From Nitrospira sp. (GTDB lineage Bacteria; Nitrospirota; Nitrospiria; Nitrospirales; Nitrospiraceae), in assembly GCA_029865225.1 (NCBI GenBank), contig JAOUHJ010000003.1:62001-126000 (forward strand): a stretch of 64,000 nucleotides of DNA, given 5' to 3'. Made by a program: the position numbers and the translations under genes. Position 1 is the first letter of the stretch. Each line of letters opens with the position of its first letter. Below, piece by piece: positions 30,537 to 37,731 of this stretch. The notes beneath the pieces were generated by a model, which ran no database searches, was not told the origin of the DNA, and saw nothing but the letters and a program-made list of their open reading frames with translations.

Positions 30537-31781
30537 CTAACTCTTTCTTGGTCGATCGTGTGAGATGCCACGGAATTGTCTGGGCAACACGACGAGGTTG
30601 GACCGTGAGACATGATAGCGTTTGCGATCCACTGCCGAATTCAATCCCATCTCGGATCCTTCGGGGATCACGTTGAACCGGTCTGCCACCACCCGCCGCA
30701 GATGCGACTTGGCGCCGACAATTGATCCATCAAGGATGATGCACTCTTCTATCTTGGTGCCTGGCTCAATGCGCACATTACGACCGATGACCGATCGCGT
30801 AATTTCAGCGTCGAGGATCTGACTCCCCTGCCCGATCATGGAATCCTCAACATAGGCCTTCGCTAAACTCGCAGTCGGACCGTCGAACGTGTCGGTCAAG
30901 ATGGGCCACTCTCCATTCCGCAGGTCGAAAATCGGACATCCTCCCAGAATATCCATATGCGCCTGCCAGTAAGCCTCCAATGTGCCGACATCACGCCAAT
31001 ATCCCCGCTCCTCATAGGGTTTCAGGCCCGGCACGACATTCTGCATGAAATTATAGGCCACCACCTGATTCTTTTTCATGATTCTCGGAATCACATCGCG
31101 ACCGAAGTCGTGGGATCCGCCTTTTCGGGCGTCCTCGGACAGCACCTTCAGCAAGACATCCGTCTCAAAGATATAGTTCCCCATCGATGAAAAGGCGTGC
31201 TCCGGATCATGAGGCATCGGCTTAGGATGTTTGGGTTTTTCTGAAAACCCCACGATTCGATCATCCGCATCAGTCTCAACTATTCCAAAGCCCCGCGCGG
31301 CATGGAGCGGGACGGGCCTGGCCGCGACCGTCACATCTGCATGTCGTTCTTGATGGAACCGCACCATCTGCGCGATATCCATGCGATAGATATGGTCCGC
31401 ACCAAACACGACCACGAGGTCCGGCGCAAAATCTTCGATGAGATTCAGATTATGAAAGACCGCGTCGGCGGTACCTTCGTACCAGCCTCCACCGGCCTTC
31501 ATTTGCGGAGGGACGACCGTGATGAACTGCTGCTTGATGCGTCCTCCGATCCGCCACGCTCGTCGCAGATGTTCGATCAGCGATTGGGACCGGTACTGCA
31601 CCAGCACGTACATCGCCATGATATCGGAGTTCAAAAAGTTGCTCAGGACGAAGTCGACGATACGATACTTTCCTCCGAACGGCACTGCCGGCTTGCTCCG
31701 GACTTCCGTCAGCGGCATGAGACGTTCGCCTTTGCCTCCGGCCATCACGATCGCCAATACGCGCTTTCCCGCGCTACTCAA
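30537..31781 (-). CDS. glgC: Glucose-1-phosphate adenylyltransferase (ADP-glucose pyrophosphorylase)
   Basis: This 414-residue GlgC makes ADP-glucose from ATP and glucose-1-phosphate. Motifs are AIVMAGGKGERLMPLT with RSKPAVPFGGKYRIVDF, GTADAVFHNL, VVVFGADHIYRMD, GFSEKPKHP, and a C-terminal left-handed beta-helix (IGRNVRIEPGTKIEECIIL). The start is TTG 31781, supported by GAAGGGG 9 bases upstream; the next Met is inside the active-site loop. ADP-glucose can feed a TreT-like enzyme or a glycogen synthase, and no glgA is visible in this window. It lies downstream of the TetR gene (139-base gap). Confidence 0.95.
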   Translation of the reverse strand: MSSAGKRVLAIVMAGGKGERLMPLTEVRSKPAVPFGGKYRIVDFVLSNFLNSDIMAMYVLVQYRSQSLIEHLRRAWRIGGRIKQQFITVVPPQMKAGGGWYEGTADAVFHNLNLIEDFAPDLVVVFGADHIYRMDIAQMVRFHQERHADVTVAARPVPLHAARGFGIVETDADDRIVGFSEKPKHPKPMPHDPEHAFSSMGNYIFETDVLLKVLSEDARKGGSHDFGRDVIPRIMKKNQVVAYNFMQNVVPGLKPYEERGYWRDVGTLEAYWQAHMDILGGCPIFDLRNGEWPILTDTFDGPTASLAKAYVEDSMIGQGSQILDAEITRSVIGRNVRIEPGTKIEECIILDGSIVGAKSHLRRVVADRFNVIPEGSEMGLNSAVDRKRYHVSRSNLVVLPRQFRGISHDRPRKS

Positions 31782-31920: not shown

Positions 31921-32562
31921 TCACCGAGATCCATTGCCGGCGTTCAGCAGCGGCTGAAGGCTCCGATCGAGTATGTTCACGAAATAGTTGCGTCTGCGCT
32001 CGGTGGATTCCTGACCTTCGAACAACACATCGTAGGTCAACACTCCCGATGTATAGGCTGCCATCGCCCTGGCGATATCCTGTGCGCTCCCAAGCTGATC
32101 AACGCTCATGGCCGGTTTGACAAGCGCCGCAAGTCGGTCCAAGTGAGCGTTGTAGATCGCCAGCAAATCATTCGCCACACCAACCTGAAGCTGCATCAGA
32201 CCTCTGACCTGGTGAAAAAACAGTAAATACTCAGGGCAACTCAGGAAGAAATCCACTCGCGCCTCAATGGCCGCCGAAAGAATCTTCGGTCCTGCTGCGA
32301 CCAACTGAACCGCCTCCTCCGTCTTGGACGTCAATTTATCCAATCCTTCTTTGAGTAAGGCGCAAATGATCGCTTCTTTGGAATCAAAGTACTTGTAGAA
32401 AGTCCCCTTCCCCTGATCGGCTAATTCCGTGATGTCTTCGATCTTCGCCCAATAGATTCCCTTTTCGGAAAACAACCGCCGTGCGACTTCCAAGAGCCGC
32501 CTGTTTGTTCTGGCCTTTCGTCGCTCGACCCGCGAGAGCGAGGCTTTAGCTGGTGTGCCCAT
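31921..32562 (-). CDS. TetR/AcrR-family transcriptional regulator
   Basis: This 213-residue regulator has an N-terminal DNA-binding domain (TNRRLLEVARRLFSEKG, then KGTFYKYFDSKEAIICALL) and a helical ligand-binding C-terminal domain. The start is ATG 32562, with GGGAGGTG upstream. A longer frame to 32649 overlaps the CBM48 gene and is unlikely. It stands inside the glycogen/trehalose run between the CBM48 gene and glgC, so it may control these genes, but no operator is seen immediately upstream. Two TGAC-N6-GTCA palindromes at 35532 and 37533 are candidate sites for a TetR-type protein. Confidence 0.9.
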   Translation of the reverse strand: MGTPAKASLSRVERRKARTNRRLLEVARRLFSEKGIYWAKIEDITELADQGKGTFYKYFDSKEAIICALLKEGLDKLTSKTEEAVQLVAAGPKILSAAIEARVDFFLSCPEYLLFFHQVRGLMQLQVGVANDLLAIYNAHLDRLAALVKPAMSVDQLGSAQDIARAMAAYTSGVLTYDVLFEGQESTERRRNYFVNILDRSLQPLLNAGNGSR

Positions 32563-32581: not shown

Positions 32582-32941
32582 CTATGGAACCGGCCTCGCA
32601 CCCTCGTCGACATTGATCCCGACGCTGCGTATGGAATTGAAAGTGCCATGCTCGTTCATGACTCGTTGGAGGTTGAGCGGATCTTCTTCCCATCGCTCTC
32701 CGTTGACCACGAACTTGTATTGGTAGGTACCAGGGGGCAACGAGATCTTGAGCGTCCAGAGACCACCGGCATCTCGTTTCATCGGCTTCCCCTCTGGGTT
32801 CCACTGATTGAAGTCACCCACCACGGCCACCACGTTGGCCGATGGATCGAAGTATTCAAACAAGACCGATTCTTTCTTGGGTCCTTTTGGTGCACGGGTA
32901 GGGCGAGGCGAAGAAGACTTTTTCTTCACTGGCTCTTTCAT
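32582..32941 (-). CDS. Stand-alone CBM48 / AMPK-beta-type glycogen-binding protein
   Basis: This 119-residue protein has a Lys/Pro-rich N-terminal 25 residues (KKKSSSPRPTRAPKGPKK) followed by one CBM48 (AMPK1-CBM) domain. Domain features include FEYFDPSANVVAVVGDFNQW, GLWTLKISLPPGTYQYKFVV and a DP near the end; the Trp and Lys/Asn residues are of the type used to hold alpha-glucan. There is no catalytic domain. A strong AAGGAGG precedes ATG 32941. It is probably a carbohydrate-binding accessory protein acting on glycogen particles. It is followed after 19 bases by the TetR gene. Confidence 0.87.
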   Translation of the reverse strand: MKEPVKKKSSSPRPTRAPKGPKKESVLFEYFDPSANVVAVVGDFNQWNPEGKPMKRDAGGLWTLKISLPPGTYQYKFVVNGERWEEDPLNLQRVMNEHGTFNSIRSVGINVDEGARPVP

Positions 32942-33047: not shown

Positions 33048-34022
33048 TTATGCAACCCCCACCAATTCGCTCGGAAACGCCGGAACCTTCCCGATTTTAC
33101 GTAGCCCCTGGGCAATCCGTTTCGGCCTCCCCCAATCACACCAGAGCACGTTCTTGACATCCAGCACCGACGCCTTGTTGAACACATGCTCGAGAAAATC
33201 CATCGAGAAGTTCTGTTTCGGCATCACTTCATAGAGCTGTTTCAGTACCTGCGCTTCCTTCGCCCCACCGACAGTCGGCAGGAGGGTTTCAAACAGGTTC
33301 ATCATCGACGGCAAGACTTTTGTTCCCAACTTCCAGAGGGTTTTGACTTTTGCCACAATGATCATCGTGTTCCAAAGCACCTGTCCCTGCACCAATGTCT
33401 TGGCCAGGTGTCGTTTCGGTTTCTCAACAAACCGCCCCACGTGCCATAGGGAATGGGATCCGTACCCCCCCACATACCGATCCAGCTGGATATACCCATA
33501 GTCCAGATCGACTCCATCGGGCTGGATGCCCAAGAGAATCAACCGATCCTCCAGCAAATCGATCGCACGGACGGCATGCCTGACCGCCTCAACCAATTGC
33601 CCCTCAGGGTGAACGAAGTGGTCAGATGGATAGATCGCGACGGTCGCGTCGGGATCGGCAGCTCGAACATAGGTGAGAGGCAGAAAAACTCCTGGTGCGG
33701 TATCACAATTAGCTGGTTGCACCACAAGAACCCCACCTCGACCATGCAATTGACTGCGTGCGGTTTCTTCGTGACTCGCACCGACGACAGTCACCCTCTG
33801 CGCTGGATCCGCGAGGGTGTCCGCCCGATCCACCGTATGTTGCAGCATGGATCTTGTCCCGGTAAAGGTGCAATATTGTTTCGGACGATCCTCTCCGAGC
33901 CACTGCTTGATCATCGGAGCCAACCTCGTTCCCTCTCCACCGGCCAAGACTATCGACCAGAGGTGAGGAATGACATCCACGTCCTTTCGCATCTTCCATT
34001 TTTCTGGAGTTGGGATGGTCAT
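33048..34022 (-). CDS. Mannose-1-phosphate guanylyltransferase-like sugar nucleotidyltransferase
   Basis: This 324-residue nucleotidyltransferase has the signature SIVLAGGEGTRLAPM and DRPKQYCTFTG, the VVQPANCDTAPGVFLPLTY segment and ATVAIYPSDHFVHP. The pattern is that of GDP-mannose pyrophosphorylase-type enzymes, but no isomerase domain is fused. The start is ATG 34022 with AAAGGAGGG 5-6 bases upstream. In the context of alpha-glucan and GT81-like genes it may instead make an activated hexose for compatible-solute or glycan synthesis. Substrate preference is uncertain. Confidence 0.78.
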   Translation of the reverse strand: MTIPTPEKWKMRKDVDVIPHLWSIVLAGGEGTRLAPMIKQWLGEDRPKQYCTFTGTRSMLQHTVDRADTLADPAQRVTVVGASHEETARSQLHGRGGVLVVQPANCDTAPGVFLPLTYVRAADPDATVAIYPSDHFVHPEGQLVEAVRHAVRAIDLLEDRLILLGIQPDGVDLDYGYIQLDRYVGGYGSHSLWHVGRFVEKPKRHLAKTLVQGQVLWNTMIIVAKVKTLWKLGTKVLPSMMNLFETLLPTVGGAKEAQVLKQLYEVMPKQNFSMDFLEHVFNKASVLDVKNVLWCDWGRPKRIAQGLRKIGKVPAFPSELVGVA

Positions 34023-34176
34023 TCGTTCCCTCCTTTCGCTCGCAACCGTCATGTACTTCTAGACCTTCTTCTTTCACCTCACAGTATGGTTACAGCCTTC
34101 TGTTGTCACATGGAATCGAGGAAAACCTGACTGCCCTACGCATCGTGGCTTCCCATATTCGCTCCGTACACCGGCT

Positions 34177-34483: not shown

Positions 34484-34780
34484 TCATACGTTGACGAGGT
34501 TGCGGCCCCGTTCAATAGCTTTTTGGAATTTCTCCGTTGCCTGTTCGGTGGCCTTCTGGAACTTTTCCGTCGCTTGCTCCGTGGCTTTCTGAAACTTCTC
34601 GGTCGCCTGCTCTGTGACATCTCCCGCTTTATCCCGGACATCCTCGGCAAAATCCGCAATTCGACGACGGGTTCGAGTGCCTGACTGAGGAGCATACAGT
34701 AACCCTGCAGTCCCACCGACCACGCACCCCGCCATAAATGTCAACAGTAACCCCATCGCCCCATACCGTCCGTTTTCCAT
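34484..34780 (-). CDS. YtxH-domain protein with three 11-residue repeats
   Basis: This 98-residue stress-type protein has an N-terminal hydrophobic helix (GLLLTFMAGCVVGGTAGLLYAP) followed by the YtxH-like TRTRRRIADFAEDVRDKAGD. Three exact copies of the 11-mer TEQATEKFQKA follow and end at IERGRNLVNV. The repeats are reminiscent of group 3 LEA-type 11-mers, a resemblance I make by pattern only. ATG 34780 is supported by a G-rich Shine-Dalgarno sequence. YtxH proteins are usually tied to general stress responses. Confidence 0.8.
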   Translation of the reverse strand: MENGRYGAMGLLLTFMAGCVVGGTAGLLYAPQSGTRTRRRIADFAEDVRDKAGDVTEQATEKFQKATEQATEKFQKATEQATEKFQKAIERGRNLVNV

Positions 34781-34995
34781 CGTGCACCCCCCTTTCATTG
34801 GGTAACAATACTGTGGCCCTGATTTATCTCACCCCTTCTTGACTCTCGTAGCTGTGGCGCCGTACGCGAGCTCCCGTTCAGACGATACTCCACACTTCCC
34901 TATCATCGGGGCTATCGATCGAGAGGTTCTTCGCCATGCACGACCAATTTTTCCCTCATGACGTCTGACTTGTGTGATAGGTCCGCGTATCGTCC

Positions 34996-35478
34996 TCATA
35001 CACTCTCTTTTGATCCAGTCGGCGGCTCCGGACTAGGTAATTGTGGACACTGCCGCTGAAAGAGAACCCCGAACCCCGCCTGATTCCTAAATTCGTCGGC
35101 TAATGGACAGTGCCACACCACCATTCCTCGAGTGAGCTCATGACCCACCGCATCCTCTTCTTCCGGAACGAGACTGATGGTAACTTCCGAACCAACGGGC
35201 GCCATCCACGTCGACTCAATAAAGATCATTGCGCGCCCGATACACCCTGTTGTTCCCTCGTGGCAATATCCATCCTGGTCCCACACCAAGAGCTTCCGAT
35301 GTCGCCTCCCTTCCTGTCGATGGCTCTCTGCGTTCATGGGATCTCGGTCCCTCTTGACACTCTCTGGTAAAACCGGATTGACGCCTAATGCACGAACTAC
35401 CTTCTCTTCCGACTTTCGACGGTTACCAGATCTTCTCCCCTGTTGATCGCCGCTTGTCCCGACCATCGCCATCAACAC
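34996..35478 (-). CDS. PilZ-like domain protein
   Basis: This 160-residue protein resembles a PilZ domain: RRHRK near the start of the domain is a candidate for the c-di-GMP-contacting arginine motif. It is followed by RAMIFIESTWMAPVGSEVTISLVPEEEDAVG and a final GFGVLFQ. The N-terminal 55 residues are basic and low-complexity. GTG 35478, with GAGGTG 6 bases upstream, is the most likely start; ATG 35472 and 35466 are alternatives. The palindrome TGACT-N4-AGTCA lies about 55 bases upstream of the gene. Confidence 0.65.
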   Translation of the reverse strand: MLMAMVGTSGDQQGRRSGNRRKSEEKVVRALGVNPVLPESVKRDRDPMNAESHRQEGRRHRKLLVWDQDGYCHEGTTGCIGRAMIFIESTWMAPVGSEVTISLVPEEEDAVGHELTRGMVVWHCPLADEFRNQAGFGVLFQRQCPQLPSPEPPTGSKESV

Positions 35479-35504
35479 TTATATCACCTCAACTAATCCC
35501 ACTA

Positions 35505-35545
35505 AGTCACTTATGACTATTAATCCATAAGTGACTGCTCAGTCA
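35505..35545. promoter_or_regulatory. Inverted repeats upstream of the PilZ-like gene
   Basis: AGTCACTTATG (35505-35515) and CATAAGTGACT (35526-35536) are perfect inverted copies. The palindrome TGACT-GCTC-AGTCA (35532-35545) overlaps the right copy. Read on the minus strand, the right part is TGACTGAGCAGTCACTTAT, matching the element at 37533 in 14 of 19 bases, with a compensated change in the palindrome. It is probably a repressor or activator site. Confidence 0.6.
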
Positions 35546-35755
35546 TTCATAGCACTCGCCATTACCGCCTGTCAAGCCATTCCAGCACAAAATCAAGGTA
35601 ATCAATGGTGCTTGAAAATGATGCGAGTCACGTCACCAGCGAGGAAATGGAGGAGGCCTCGTCAGACACCTTGGTAATCAGGCTGGCGAGCCTGGACAGC
35701 CTTTGGCGGGGTCAACGGAGAGCGTTCGCCATGCACCAATTGACAAAATTTCAAG

Positions 35756-35800
35756 GGTCGCCACCAGACTGCTGACTCTTACGTCGAGCTGGTGGCGACC
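35756..35800. terminator. 12-bp stem-loop, possible terminator
   Basis: GGTCGCCACCAG (35756-35767) and CTGGTGGCGACC (35789-35800) are perfect inverted repeats with a 21-base loop. The stem lies just past the end of the minus-strand OmpA-type gene (stop at 35872), so it could fold in that transcript. No T-run follows on that side, so termination by the intrinsic mechanism is uncertain. Confidence 0.45.
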
Positions 35801-35871
35801 GACTTGCCTACCAGGCTAGGGCACACCTAGGTTGAGATATGTTCCGCTCAACAGTTCTTGGCATCCAACAC

Positions 35872-36918
35872 TCACTGTTTTGTCGGTATCAGCACGATCT
35901 CAACCCGGCGATTTTGAGCCTGACCGGATGGCGTGGCATTGTCCGCGATGGGTTTGCTTTCCCCATACCCCTTGATTTCCATCCGCTCGGCCGCAATCCC
36001 TCCGTCGAGAAGAATCTTTTGAACCGATTGCGCACGCGACTCAGAGAGGGACAGATTGTACTCGTTCGACCCAATGGAATCTGTATGGCCCTCAATCAGC
36101 AGAGTTTGGTCCGGTACGGCAGCCAGAGCCTTTGCGATTTTTGTCAGCTGCATTTGCATCGCCGGCTTCACGTCCGCCTTGTTAAAGTTGAAATAGATGT
36201 TCCCGGGTAACGTCACGATCACTCCACGGGCGTCCTCGCGCACCTTTGCCAAACGGGACAACGTCGCCGTCAACTCCGCTTTCGATTTTTCATGCTCCGC
36301 GCGAAGCCGTGCGAGCTCACGTTCAGCCTGTTCAGCACGAGCTTGCTCAGCCGCCAGTGCTGCAAGTTTTCCCTGTTCGTCTAATGCAAGTTTTTCCTGT
36401 TCCTCGCGAAGTCGTGCGACCTCCTGCTCCGCGCGAGCCCGTTCAGCAGCCAGCTTTGCTTTCGCATTCTGCAGAGCCTGTTCCTGCTCTTGGGACAAAG
36501 TCTTCATCCGTTCAAGCTCCGCTTCCTGCTCTTTTTGCCTGAGCAGGATCAGCTCGGCATCACGCAACGCCAATTCATGCCGGTTCTTCCGATTCGTTTC
36601 ACGACGGATGGCTTCCTCGGCCGCCTGAGTTTCTGCTGCGTACTGCGCCTTCCTCGCCTCCGCTTCCGCCAACCTTGCCTGGTGAAGGATGGCCGCCTCA
36701 TCATGGTCTTTGTCCCATGACTTGTTGGCAATATCCAGGTTGGCTGCTGCGGAGTCGTATGAACGTGTCGCGCGTGTGTCCGCATTCGCAGCCTTGGCAT
36801 CTTGGAGAGCCAGGCGTGCCTCGACAAGCTCGTTGGGTGGTGGGCCGGGAGTCGCACAGGCAGTGATAATCAAAACACCCAAGAGAACACCGCTTACACC
36901 CCAAATTCTATCGTGCAT
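35872..36918 (-). CDS. OmpA-family lipoprotein with DUF4398-like coiled coil
   Basis: This 348-residue lipoprotein has an N-terminal signal with lipobox LIITAC, and a long helical region rich in Ala/Glu/Arg (about 40-215) resembling DUF4398 and coiled coils. An OmpA C-terminal domain (about 230-345) follows, with IYFNFNKADVKP, IEGHTDSIGSNEYNLSLSESRAQSV and GYGESKPI. That domain should bind peptidoglycan. ATG 36918 is chosen because AAAGGAGATG lies just upstream. It follows another DUF4398-type lipoprotein gene in the same direction after a 60-base gap. Confidence 0.88.
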   Translation of the reverse strand: MHDRIWGVSGVLLGVLIITACATPGPPPNELVEARLALQDAKAANADTRATRSYDSAAANLDIANKSWDKDHDEAAILHQARLAEAEARKAQYAAETQAAEEAIRRETNRKNRHELALRDAELILLRQKEQEAELERMKTLSQEQEQALQNAKAKLAAERARAEQEVARLREEQEKLALDEQGKLAALAAEQARAEQAERELARLRAEHEKSKAELTATLSRLAKVREDARGVIVTLPGNIYFNFNKADVKPAMQMQLTKIAKALAAVPDQTLLIEGHTDSIGSNEYNLSLSESRAQSVQKILLDGGIAAERMEIKGYGESKPIADNATPSGQAQNRRVEIVLIPTKQ

Positions 36919-36978
36919 AGTCGCATCTCCTTTTTTCTCACCTATTCGTCCTCTCTCAGACTTCATGGCAGACTCAGG

Positions 36979-37365
36979 CTACGGATTTTTTAACTTTTTC
37001 TTCAGCTCTGTGGCTTTGGCCTCCAATTCGTCCGCTTGCTGGCGCAGCATGGCGGACTCACCTTTCTTCTGTTCGGCTTCAGCCCGGGTGCGCGCCGCTT
37101 CGGCGTAGGTGGTCGTTTCCAGAAGCCGTTCCCGCGCCACCGCGTGATCGCCCTTCCCCGAAGCCTGCTGTGCCGCACCGAGTGCCTGCCGGGATTTCTG
37201 CAGCAGATCCGGAGCACGATCAAAAGCCCCGGCCGATTCAGCACTCCGGATAGTCGCTTCGGTTTCTGCCAGTTCTGCCGGGGTCACCGGCGTGACACTC
37301 GAGGCGCAGCCGATCGCAATGAACGACAGGACAATGACCACGGTTGGCCCAATAACATTCCTCAT
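36979..37365 (-). CDS. DUF4398-type lipoprotein
   Basis: This 128-residue lipoprotein has a signal ending in FIAIGC, then DUF4398-like repeats (AELAETEATIRSAESAGAF, PDLLQKSRQALGAAQQAS) and a C-terminal coiled coil (RQQADELEAKATELKKKL). ATG 37365 is chosen because AAGGAG lies about 9 bases upstream; the longer frame to 37431 lacks such a site. It is the first gene of a two-gene unit with the OmpA-type lipoprotein. A TGACC-CATT-GGTCA palindrome lies about 170 bases upstream. Confidence 0.82.
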   Translation of the reverse strand: MRNVIGPTVVIVLSFIAIGCASSVTPVTPAELAETEATIRSAESAGAFDRAPDLLQKSRQALGAAQQASGKGDHAVARERLLETTTYAEAARTRAEAEQKKGESAMLRQQADELEAKATELKKKLKNP

Positions 37366-37532
37366 AAGAGAACTCCTTTTCGTTTTCACCATTTTGAGCC
37401 CGTAAACCGCACCTTCCTCTCTTTCTCCCAATCTAAACCGCCAGACAGACGCTATTTGACCTGACTAATCACCACCAAGAATCACCTCCCCCCCAAGGCG
37501 CTATGGTAATAATATGACCTTCTGCCCATACA

Positions 37533-37546
37533 TGACCCATTGGTCA
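37533..37546. promoter_or_regulatory. TGACC-CATT-GGTCA palindrome upstream of the DUF4398 gene
   Basis: This is a perfect 5-4-5 palindrome followed on the plus strand by CTTAT. The 19-base string TGACCCATTGGTCACTTAT matches TGACTGAGCAGTCACTTAT (minus strand at 35527-35545) in 14 positions, with C/G changed to T/A together. It is a likely shared operator; TetR-type proteins often bind such dyads, and a tetR gene lies 5 kb away. Confidence 0.55.
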
Positions 37547-37731
37547 CTTATTTATCGCATACCTAACATTATCTGTCAATCCTCGGAAGAAACTTCACGC
37601 TCCCGCCTTCATGTTCGTATCGTAGGCACTTCGGCACTCATGTGGCTTTTAGGGGCAGGATACAAACTGACATTGTGGAAAAATTGAGCATTCTGTGAGC
37701 CCTCTCGACTCATTACTGAAGGAGATACAAC

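Follow-up and report, generated by a model that had tools for sequence, protein, structure and literature searches.

TetR-family proteins often repress transcription through palindromes that overlap promoters, and they mostly act on nearby genes (PMC6790063). The same account describes the "type II" arrangement of the scheme of Ahn et al., in which a TetR-family local repressor is encoded beside its targets and in the same orientation (PMC6790063). Among individual members, DarR of Mycobacterium and Rhodococcus recognises the palindrome ATACT-N4-AGTAT, binds as a dimer of dimers on overlapping palindromes, and contacts the TxC half-site through Lys44 and Gly45 (PMC10636190). RutR of Escherichia coli has a palindrome of about 16 bp (PMC10891134).

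We analysed two palindromic elements in a 64,000-nt stretch of Nitrospira sp. DNA (hereafter the window). They precede a PilZ-like gene and a DUF4398-OmpA gene pair, respectively (Table 1). Judging from sequence comparison, it is highly probable that both are the operator of the TetR-family regulator encoded nearby, and that this protein represses an envelope and storage-sugar operon that includes its own gene. If this is true, Nitrospira, an environmentally important nitrifier, gains a concrete transcription switch, in which one TetR, the operator it acts on and a limited group of targets link the cell envelope with glycogen and trehalose genes. Such a regulator in Nitrospira was not found among the matches listed in the open-access literature.

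The two 19-mers are located where the original prediction had placed them (37533-37551 on the plus strand, 35545-35527 on the minus strand) and have 14 of 19 bases in common. The inverted copy of AGTCACTTATG that it described is also present (35505-35515 and 35526-35536, complementarity of 100%), and corresponds to the right arm of O1 opposite the junction of O2 and O3. The motif TGACN6GTCACTTAT, with up to two mismatches, has four matches in the window, one on each strand at two places, where 0.86 are expected (sd 0.94); none of 100 window shuffles attains this count. When we scanned the whole 4.12-Mb genome for its 13 fixed bases with at most one mismatch, as had been proposed, these were the only two places, 2 kb apart; the backward control of the motif gave one match in the same genome.

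Two other elements of the original prediction had to be revised. The plus-strand reading of the 37.5-kb copy runs against the direction of the gene. Read in gene direction (minus), this copy is TGACCAATGGGTCATGTATGGGCAGAAGGTCA (37546 to 37515), and the CTTAT that was counted as common to both is, in this copy, the reverse complement of the bases that follow the -10 box. The claim that the palindrome arms change together is correct for the two window copies and fails for the family: among 21 sites, positions 5 and 10 are C..A in 11, C..G in four, T..G in four and T..A in two, i.e., they are complementary in six sites and non-complementary in 15. Covarying arms were therefore rejected as a sign of selection for symmetry. 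The element is also larger than first described, since it comprises a promoter, a dyad, and a second dyad 18 bp further. In gene direction, the two window sites are built alike: TTGACA, 17-18 bases, a -10-like box with TGC before it, 0 or 4 bases, and the operator core TGACY-N4-RGTCA, which is followed 18 bp downstream by a degenerate second copy and sometimes by a third. At the level of sequence alone, a palindromic site overlaps the promoter of the adjacent genes.

Table 1. Predicted promoters, operators and genes of the module (positions in the window)
Feature	Positions	Strand	Basis
-35 element TTGACA of the unit PilZ-like/YtxH/.../TetR	35570..35575	minus	sequence; TTGAC invariant in the 9-site alignment
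-10 element TATGAA, TGC before it (extended -10), 18-nt spacer	35546..35551	minus	sequence; same place as TATAA of several orthologs
Operator O1, TGACTGAGCAGTCA, expected across +1	35532..35545	minus	sequence and comparison
Operator O2, TGGATTAATAGTCA, 18 bp downstream of O1	35514..35527	minus	offset-18 matrix peak, 21 arrays and 7 out-of-genus arrays
Third slot O3, degenerate, TGACTTAGTGGGAT, limited to the left half	35496..35509	minus	offset-36 matrix peak (21 arrays)
-35 element TTGACA of the DUF4398-OmpA unit	37574..37579	minus	sequence; match of the promoter-plus-dyad pattern
-10 element GATAAA, TGC before it, 17-nt spacer, DUF4398-OmpA unit	37551..37556	minus	sequence
Operator O1 of the DUF4398-OmpA unit, TGACCAATGGGTCA	37533..37546	minus	sequence; found by profile R1
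Operator O2 of the DUF4398-OmpA unit, TGGGCAGAAGGTCA	37515..37528	minus	18-bp offset as at the PilZ-like operator
DUF4398 lipoprotein-like gene	36979..37365	minus	PF14346, 30.7 bits vs cut-off 27.9
OmpA-domain lipoprotein-like gene	35872..36966	minus	PF00691
Strong hairpin behind OmpA, where the DUF4398-OmpA transcript may end	35756..35800	minus	RNA folding
PilZ-like gene, at the head of the operon	34996..35478	minus	orthologs
YtxH gene	34484..34798	minus	PF12732
Mannose-1-phosphate guanylyltransferase-like gene (ManC)	33048..34052	minus	PF00483; TIGR01479 scores under its cut-off
Small stand-alone CBM48/AMPK-type glycogen-binding protein, adjoins TetR	32582..32941	minus	PF16561, PF02922
TetR-family regulator, proposed repressor	31921..32562	minus	PF00440; AF2 model; ORF open from 32649
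GlgC-like gene, follows TetR on the same strand	30537..31781	minus	PF00483, PF25247; neighbourhood in relatives

Given the usual distance from promoter to start, transcription should begin inside the O1 dyad. A promoter consensus scan of the window listed neither promoter (three sites found vs 4.1 in shuffles). The -10 boxes of both are off consensus, and TATGAA is absent from the list since its sixth base is not the T demanded by the scan. One might ask if the conserved symmetry mainly reflects RNA structure, with the 5' leader folding into a hairpin (AGUCACUUAUG / CAUAAGUGACU) or a terminator-like stem being formed. A 12-bp stem can indeed form in the PilZ leader of the window, and among the terminator-like stems that the terminator scan lists (eight found vs 6.6 in shuffles) is a plus-strand one at the 37.5-kb O1. 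The linker pairs in 59 of 112 cells vs 51.5 in shuffles, a marginal excess (4% of 5000 shuffles reach 59) that is accounted for by the repeated operator half-sites. However, the folding of the leaders is unremarkable (z -1.73 and -0.83), and three of the out-of-genus arrays (G194, G323, and G062) form just 3, 4, and 4 of 14 pairs. Furthermore, O1, which is the best conserved dyad, extends across the expected start, and only part of it would be transcribed in gene direction. We consider this structural reading extremely unlikely, and return to the sites as probable DNA operators of the TetR.

We inspected the best PilZ-like matches of nine relatives: eight keep the promoter and dyad before this gene, the exception being G003; a looser array pattern gave no match at loci with weaker PilZ matches (L013-L032). 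The alignment of nine sites (eight relatives and the window) has invariant TTGAC, TGAC, GTCA, TG, and GTC columns. We used these nine sites to build a sequence-only promoter-operator profile (R1), and searched 79 genomes of the genus; the filters were strict and no more than 53 candidates were scored in each, so weak sites elsewhere may be missed. The profile matched 30 genomes at E ≤ 1, of which 17 had a strong match (E ≤ 1.3e-6); the best match in the remaining 62 had an E value of 0.054. The DUF4398 site of the window, absent from the training set, was recovered at 25.2 bits (E 4.4e-5).

We then identified TetR orthologs (E ≤ 1e-10) in 16 of the 79 genomes, all 16 within the 17 with a strong operator; eight of the 16 had contributed no training site to R1. 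The seventeenth operator genome (G048) is 78% complete and its contig stops 24 bases behind the CBM48 gene. The operator is upstream of TetR and on the same strand in all 16 (the window and 15 relatives), at a distance of about 1-5 kb. These counts come from 19 compared regions, including two controls lacking the operator (G003 and G004) and two regions showing no TetR (G048 and the second contig of G023). Each of the contigs G023:C100 and G023:C275 has a PilZ-like gene with an operator, corresponding to paralogs or to a mixed assembly.

The co-occurrence of operator and TetR in the genus is partly a single event, because both share one operon. The link between them can be separated from the shared operon in G003, in G062 (see below), and at the second operators of the DUF4398-OmpA pair. 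G003 keeps the PilZ-like, DUF4398-OmpA, CBM48, and GlgC genes; its TetR is broken (about the first 44 residues in one piece), and we found in it neither a YtxH match nor an operator before the PilZ-like gene. The DUF4398-OmpA pair is upstream of the main operator in G000, G107, and G013, and has its own operator copy there. This copy is clear in the first two, with a longer stretch from promoter to dyad in G107, and weak in G013 (R1 E 0.185). In five other genomes (G046, G002, G037, G114, and G098) the pair is inside the operon, and R1 finds no second site beside it. The region of G003 concerned (L105/L143, JAHBWT010000008.1, around 3.1-4.3 kb) has the appearance of a natural decay of the module, with ManC and TetR in pieces and the operator gone.

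We searched the 79 genomes with a pattern of promoter and dyad (TTGACN{22,29}TGACYNNNNRGTCA), which fails to recover the second site of G107 and that of G013 and so does not cover all variants. It gave 26 matches in 24 genomes. The 17 operator genomes account for 19 of them, all at the module, and seven of the 62 others for one each. The backward control of the pattern gave 12 matches in the 79 genomes. A wide regulon was rejected, as the seven matches in the other genomes do not exceed the level of the control; two pairs of these seven are identical in sequence, and by eye none has a TATAAT-like -10 box. Elsewhere in the genome of the window, R1 found a single weak match (E 0.247). Hence, the regulon appears to be local, although weak or oddly spaced sites may be missed. 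These results also bear on the possibility that the dyad is bound by another regulator, e.g., one of the CRP/FNR type, whose 14-bp sites (two 5-base arms separated by a 4-base gap) have the very geometry of the dyad. FNR-type sites are of the form TTGAT-N4-ATCAA, whereas the arms are here TGACY/RGTCA, and the dyad lies over the transcription start instead of at -41. Strong sites are confined to the genomes with this TetR plus G048, and the pattern shows no surplus elsewhere. Binding by such a regulator is thus very unlikely, and the TetR encoded in the operon is the much better candidate.

Outside the genus the operator could be studied in more distant backgrounds. We found TetR at E ≤ 1e-25 in 17 of the 395 genomes of the phylum, of which seven are outside the genus (44-64% identical) and represent seven other genera, six from the same family and one from another family. 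All seven have exactly one TGACN6GTCA within up to 4 kb upstream of TetR, an outcome seen in 2.5-7.4% of 2000 shuffles each. A TTGAC box is found 22-29 nt before the dyad in six of them (≤0.15% of 2000 shuffles each); in G347 the dyad is present and the box absent. In G062, the genome from the other family (TetR 44% identical), the dyad is directly before TetR, and no YtxH or CBM48 match was found within the 16 kb examined. A single duplication might have produced both window copies, in which case they would be two duplicated promoters sharing nothing but ancestry, with no regulator. We give this almost no credence: the site is kept in the orthologs of seven other genera, its flanks have diverged, and its centre is unconserved (16 different tetramers in 21 sites). 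The suggestion that the nearby TetR governs a small regulon through the palindromes as a common operator receives strong comparative support, from the co-inheritance, the sole TetR_N match in the genome (see below), and the dyads upstream of all seven TetR orthologs from outside the genus.

The most distinctive trait of this system is the 18-bp array. When the O1 matrix was scored at every offset behind O1 in 21 arrays, the top peaks were at 18 (z 17.9) and 36 (z 9.7); since the arrays are related, these z values are not probabilities. Lesser peaks at offsets 11, 29, 25, 4, and 32 (z 3.4-7.0) match half-sites in some cases. Of the arrays, 11 were first found by patterns holding conserved letters and 10 by R1, and the invariance of these letters is partly by choice in the former. 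The seven out-of-genus arrays had no part in the matrix, and offset 18 was their best of 62 (5.5 vs a mean of -26.9, sd 6.0); offset 36, i.e., O3, was not among their best offsets. G366 has two good copies, TGACCATATAGTCA-CTTA-TGACTATATGGTCG. Three recognisable dyads at 18-bp steps are visible at L103:4855-4904 (G021) and at L163:10863-10912 (G347). Such an array also lends itself to testing how TetR dimers align on DNA.

The assignment of the regulator to the TetR family is clear from its TetR_N domain (PF00440, 45.6 bits vs a cut-off of 24), which is the single match of this profile (E ≤ 0.001) in a genome that is 99.98% complete. The helix-turn-helix stretch GKGTFY.YF is identical in all 23 aligned TetRs. 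The AF2 model has the all-helical fold of the family (eight helices, mean pLDDT 82, with the five models varying between 59 and 82); its recognition-helix region is modelled as non-helical with low confidence (pLDDT 62 for block 51-60). A fold search against the PDB gave 124 matches at E ≤ 0.001, with TetR-family chains first (PfmR, BkaR, and FadR of B. subtilis), and identities of 14-23% to the 50 best of the 124. The first neighbours include fatty-acid regulators; with identities this low, we rejected the deduction of a ligand from the nearest fold. Scores were far from the cut-offs of described families: 40.1 vs 150 for ScbR, the top NCBIfam family, 35 vs 200 bits for FadR (Bacillus type), 37.8 vs 330 bits for FasR, and 30.6 vs 368 bits for the RutR equivalog (TIGR03613).

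The genes behind the operators are less uniform in the quality of their annotation. A gene does follow the 35.5-kb palindrome, as the original prediction had it, but the name "PilZ-like" is weakly founded: the window protein has no Pfam match, and a PilZ scan of nine proteins (eight orthologs and that of the window) gave one score just below the cut-off (22.0 vs 22.5 bits). This assignment, like the stress role attributed to both units, is presumptive. YtxH is found between the operator and TetR in 16 of 16 genomes of the genus (the window and 15 relatives), and is separated from ManC by 431 nt, a gap that a transcript reaching as far as TetR would have to cross. The CBM48 protein has 119 aa; its gene is directly before TetR in the 16 TetR-bearing genomes of the genus and near TetR in four of the seven outside. 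The DUF4398 ORF is open from 37431, and the ATG at 37365, preceded by GGAG, is judged from the sequence to be the likelier start. The region behind OmpA (35740-35815) folds with -33.3 kcal/mol (z -4.87). The hairpin within it has a 12-bp perfect inverted repeat and a weak T run, and is not in the terminator-scan list of the window. It is consistent with separate transcription of the two units, and the need of the DUF4398 unit for an operator of its own would then be understandable. The names that Pfam and NCBIfam give to the targets (YtxH, DUF4398, OmpA, ManC-like, CBM48, and GlgC) suggest that envelope upkeep is tied to storage sugar.

We propose that a TetR dimer binds O1 over the start of a sigma-70-type promoter and switches it off. 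Further dimers would occupy the degenerate O2, and sometimes O3, in 18-bp steps downstream, probably in a cooperative way, and the occupancy of O1 to O3 would be a roadblock across the first 30-50 or so transcribed bases. The main promoter would drive the PilZ-like, YtxH, ManC, CBM48, and TetR genes, and perhaps GlgC. As it would drive TetR itself, the repressor would limit its own synthesis. Wherever the DUF4398-OmpA pair is outside the operon, it would respond through its own operator copy. A ligand of TetR would presumably release the operator. A more elaborate version, in which a row of TetR dimers sits on the 18-bp-phased array over the start and leader, CBM48 is a partner or sensor, and the glycogen state sets the levels of the envelope proteins and GlgC, is conceivable and rather unlikely.

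How does this locus compare with the described systems? It resembles type II TetR repressors in its TetR_N helix-turn-helix, mostly helical predicted fold, palindrome over the promoter, and adjacent targets in the same orientation; it differs by its envelope and storage-sugar targets, the tandem operators at 18 bp, and the position of the regulator downstream in the operon. Like DarR, it has a 14-bp palindrome of 5-4-5 layout, in which ATACT and TGACY share A-C-pyrimidine equidistant from the centre, a Lys-Gly pair in the helix-turn-helix (GKGTFY here), and more than one proposed dimer per operator. From the order of the motif, Lys52-Gly53 may act here as the half-site readers do in DarR. Unlike in DarR, the core is TGACY-N4-RGTCA and the copies are 18 bp apart, without the overlapping palindromes that accommodate two DarR dimers. 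The identity to a DarR chain is 18% (fold search, 50 best of 124), and no link to c-di-AMP is apparent here.

The RutR site is TTGACCANNTGGTCAA, with the core TGACC-N4-GGTCA. The DUF4398 site of the window is of this core type, and both regulators are of the TetR family. Yet, RutR acts at many places (PMC6790063), and the gene contents are unrelated. Fatty-acid regulators of the FadR/PfmR/FasR type come first in the PDB fold search, with weak FasR and FadR family scores, but the identities to the 50 best chains (14-23%) are low, the scores are far below the family cut-offs, and no fatty-acid gene was recognised in the operon. The TetR operon described here thus very probably belongs, on the strength of its sequence, to a known kind of system: a TetR-family repressor with a predicted operator.
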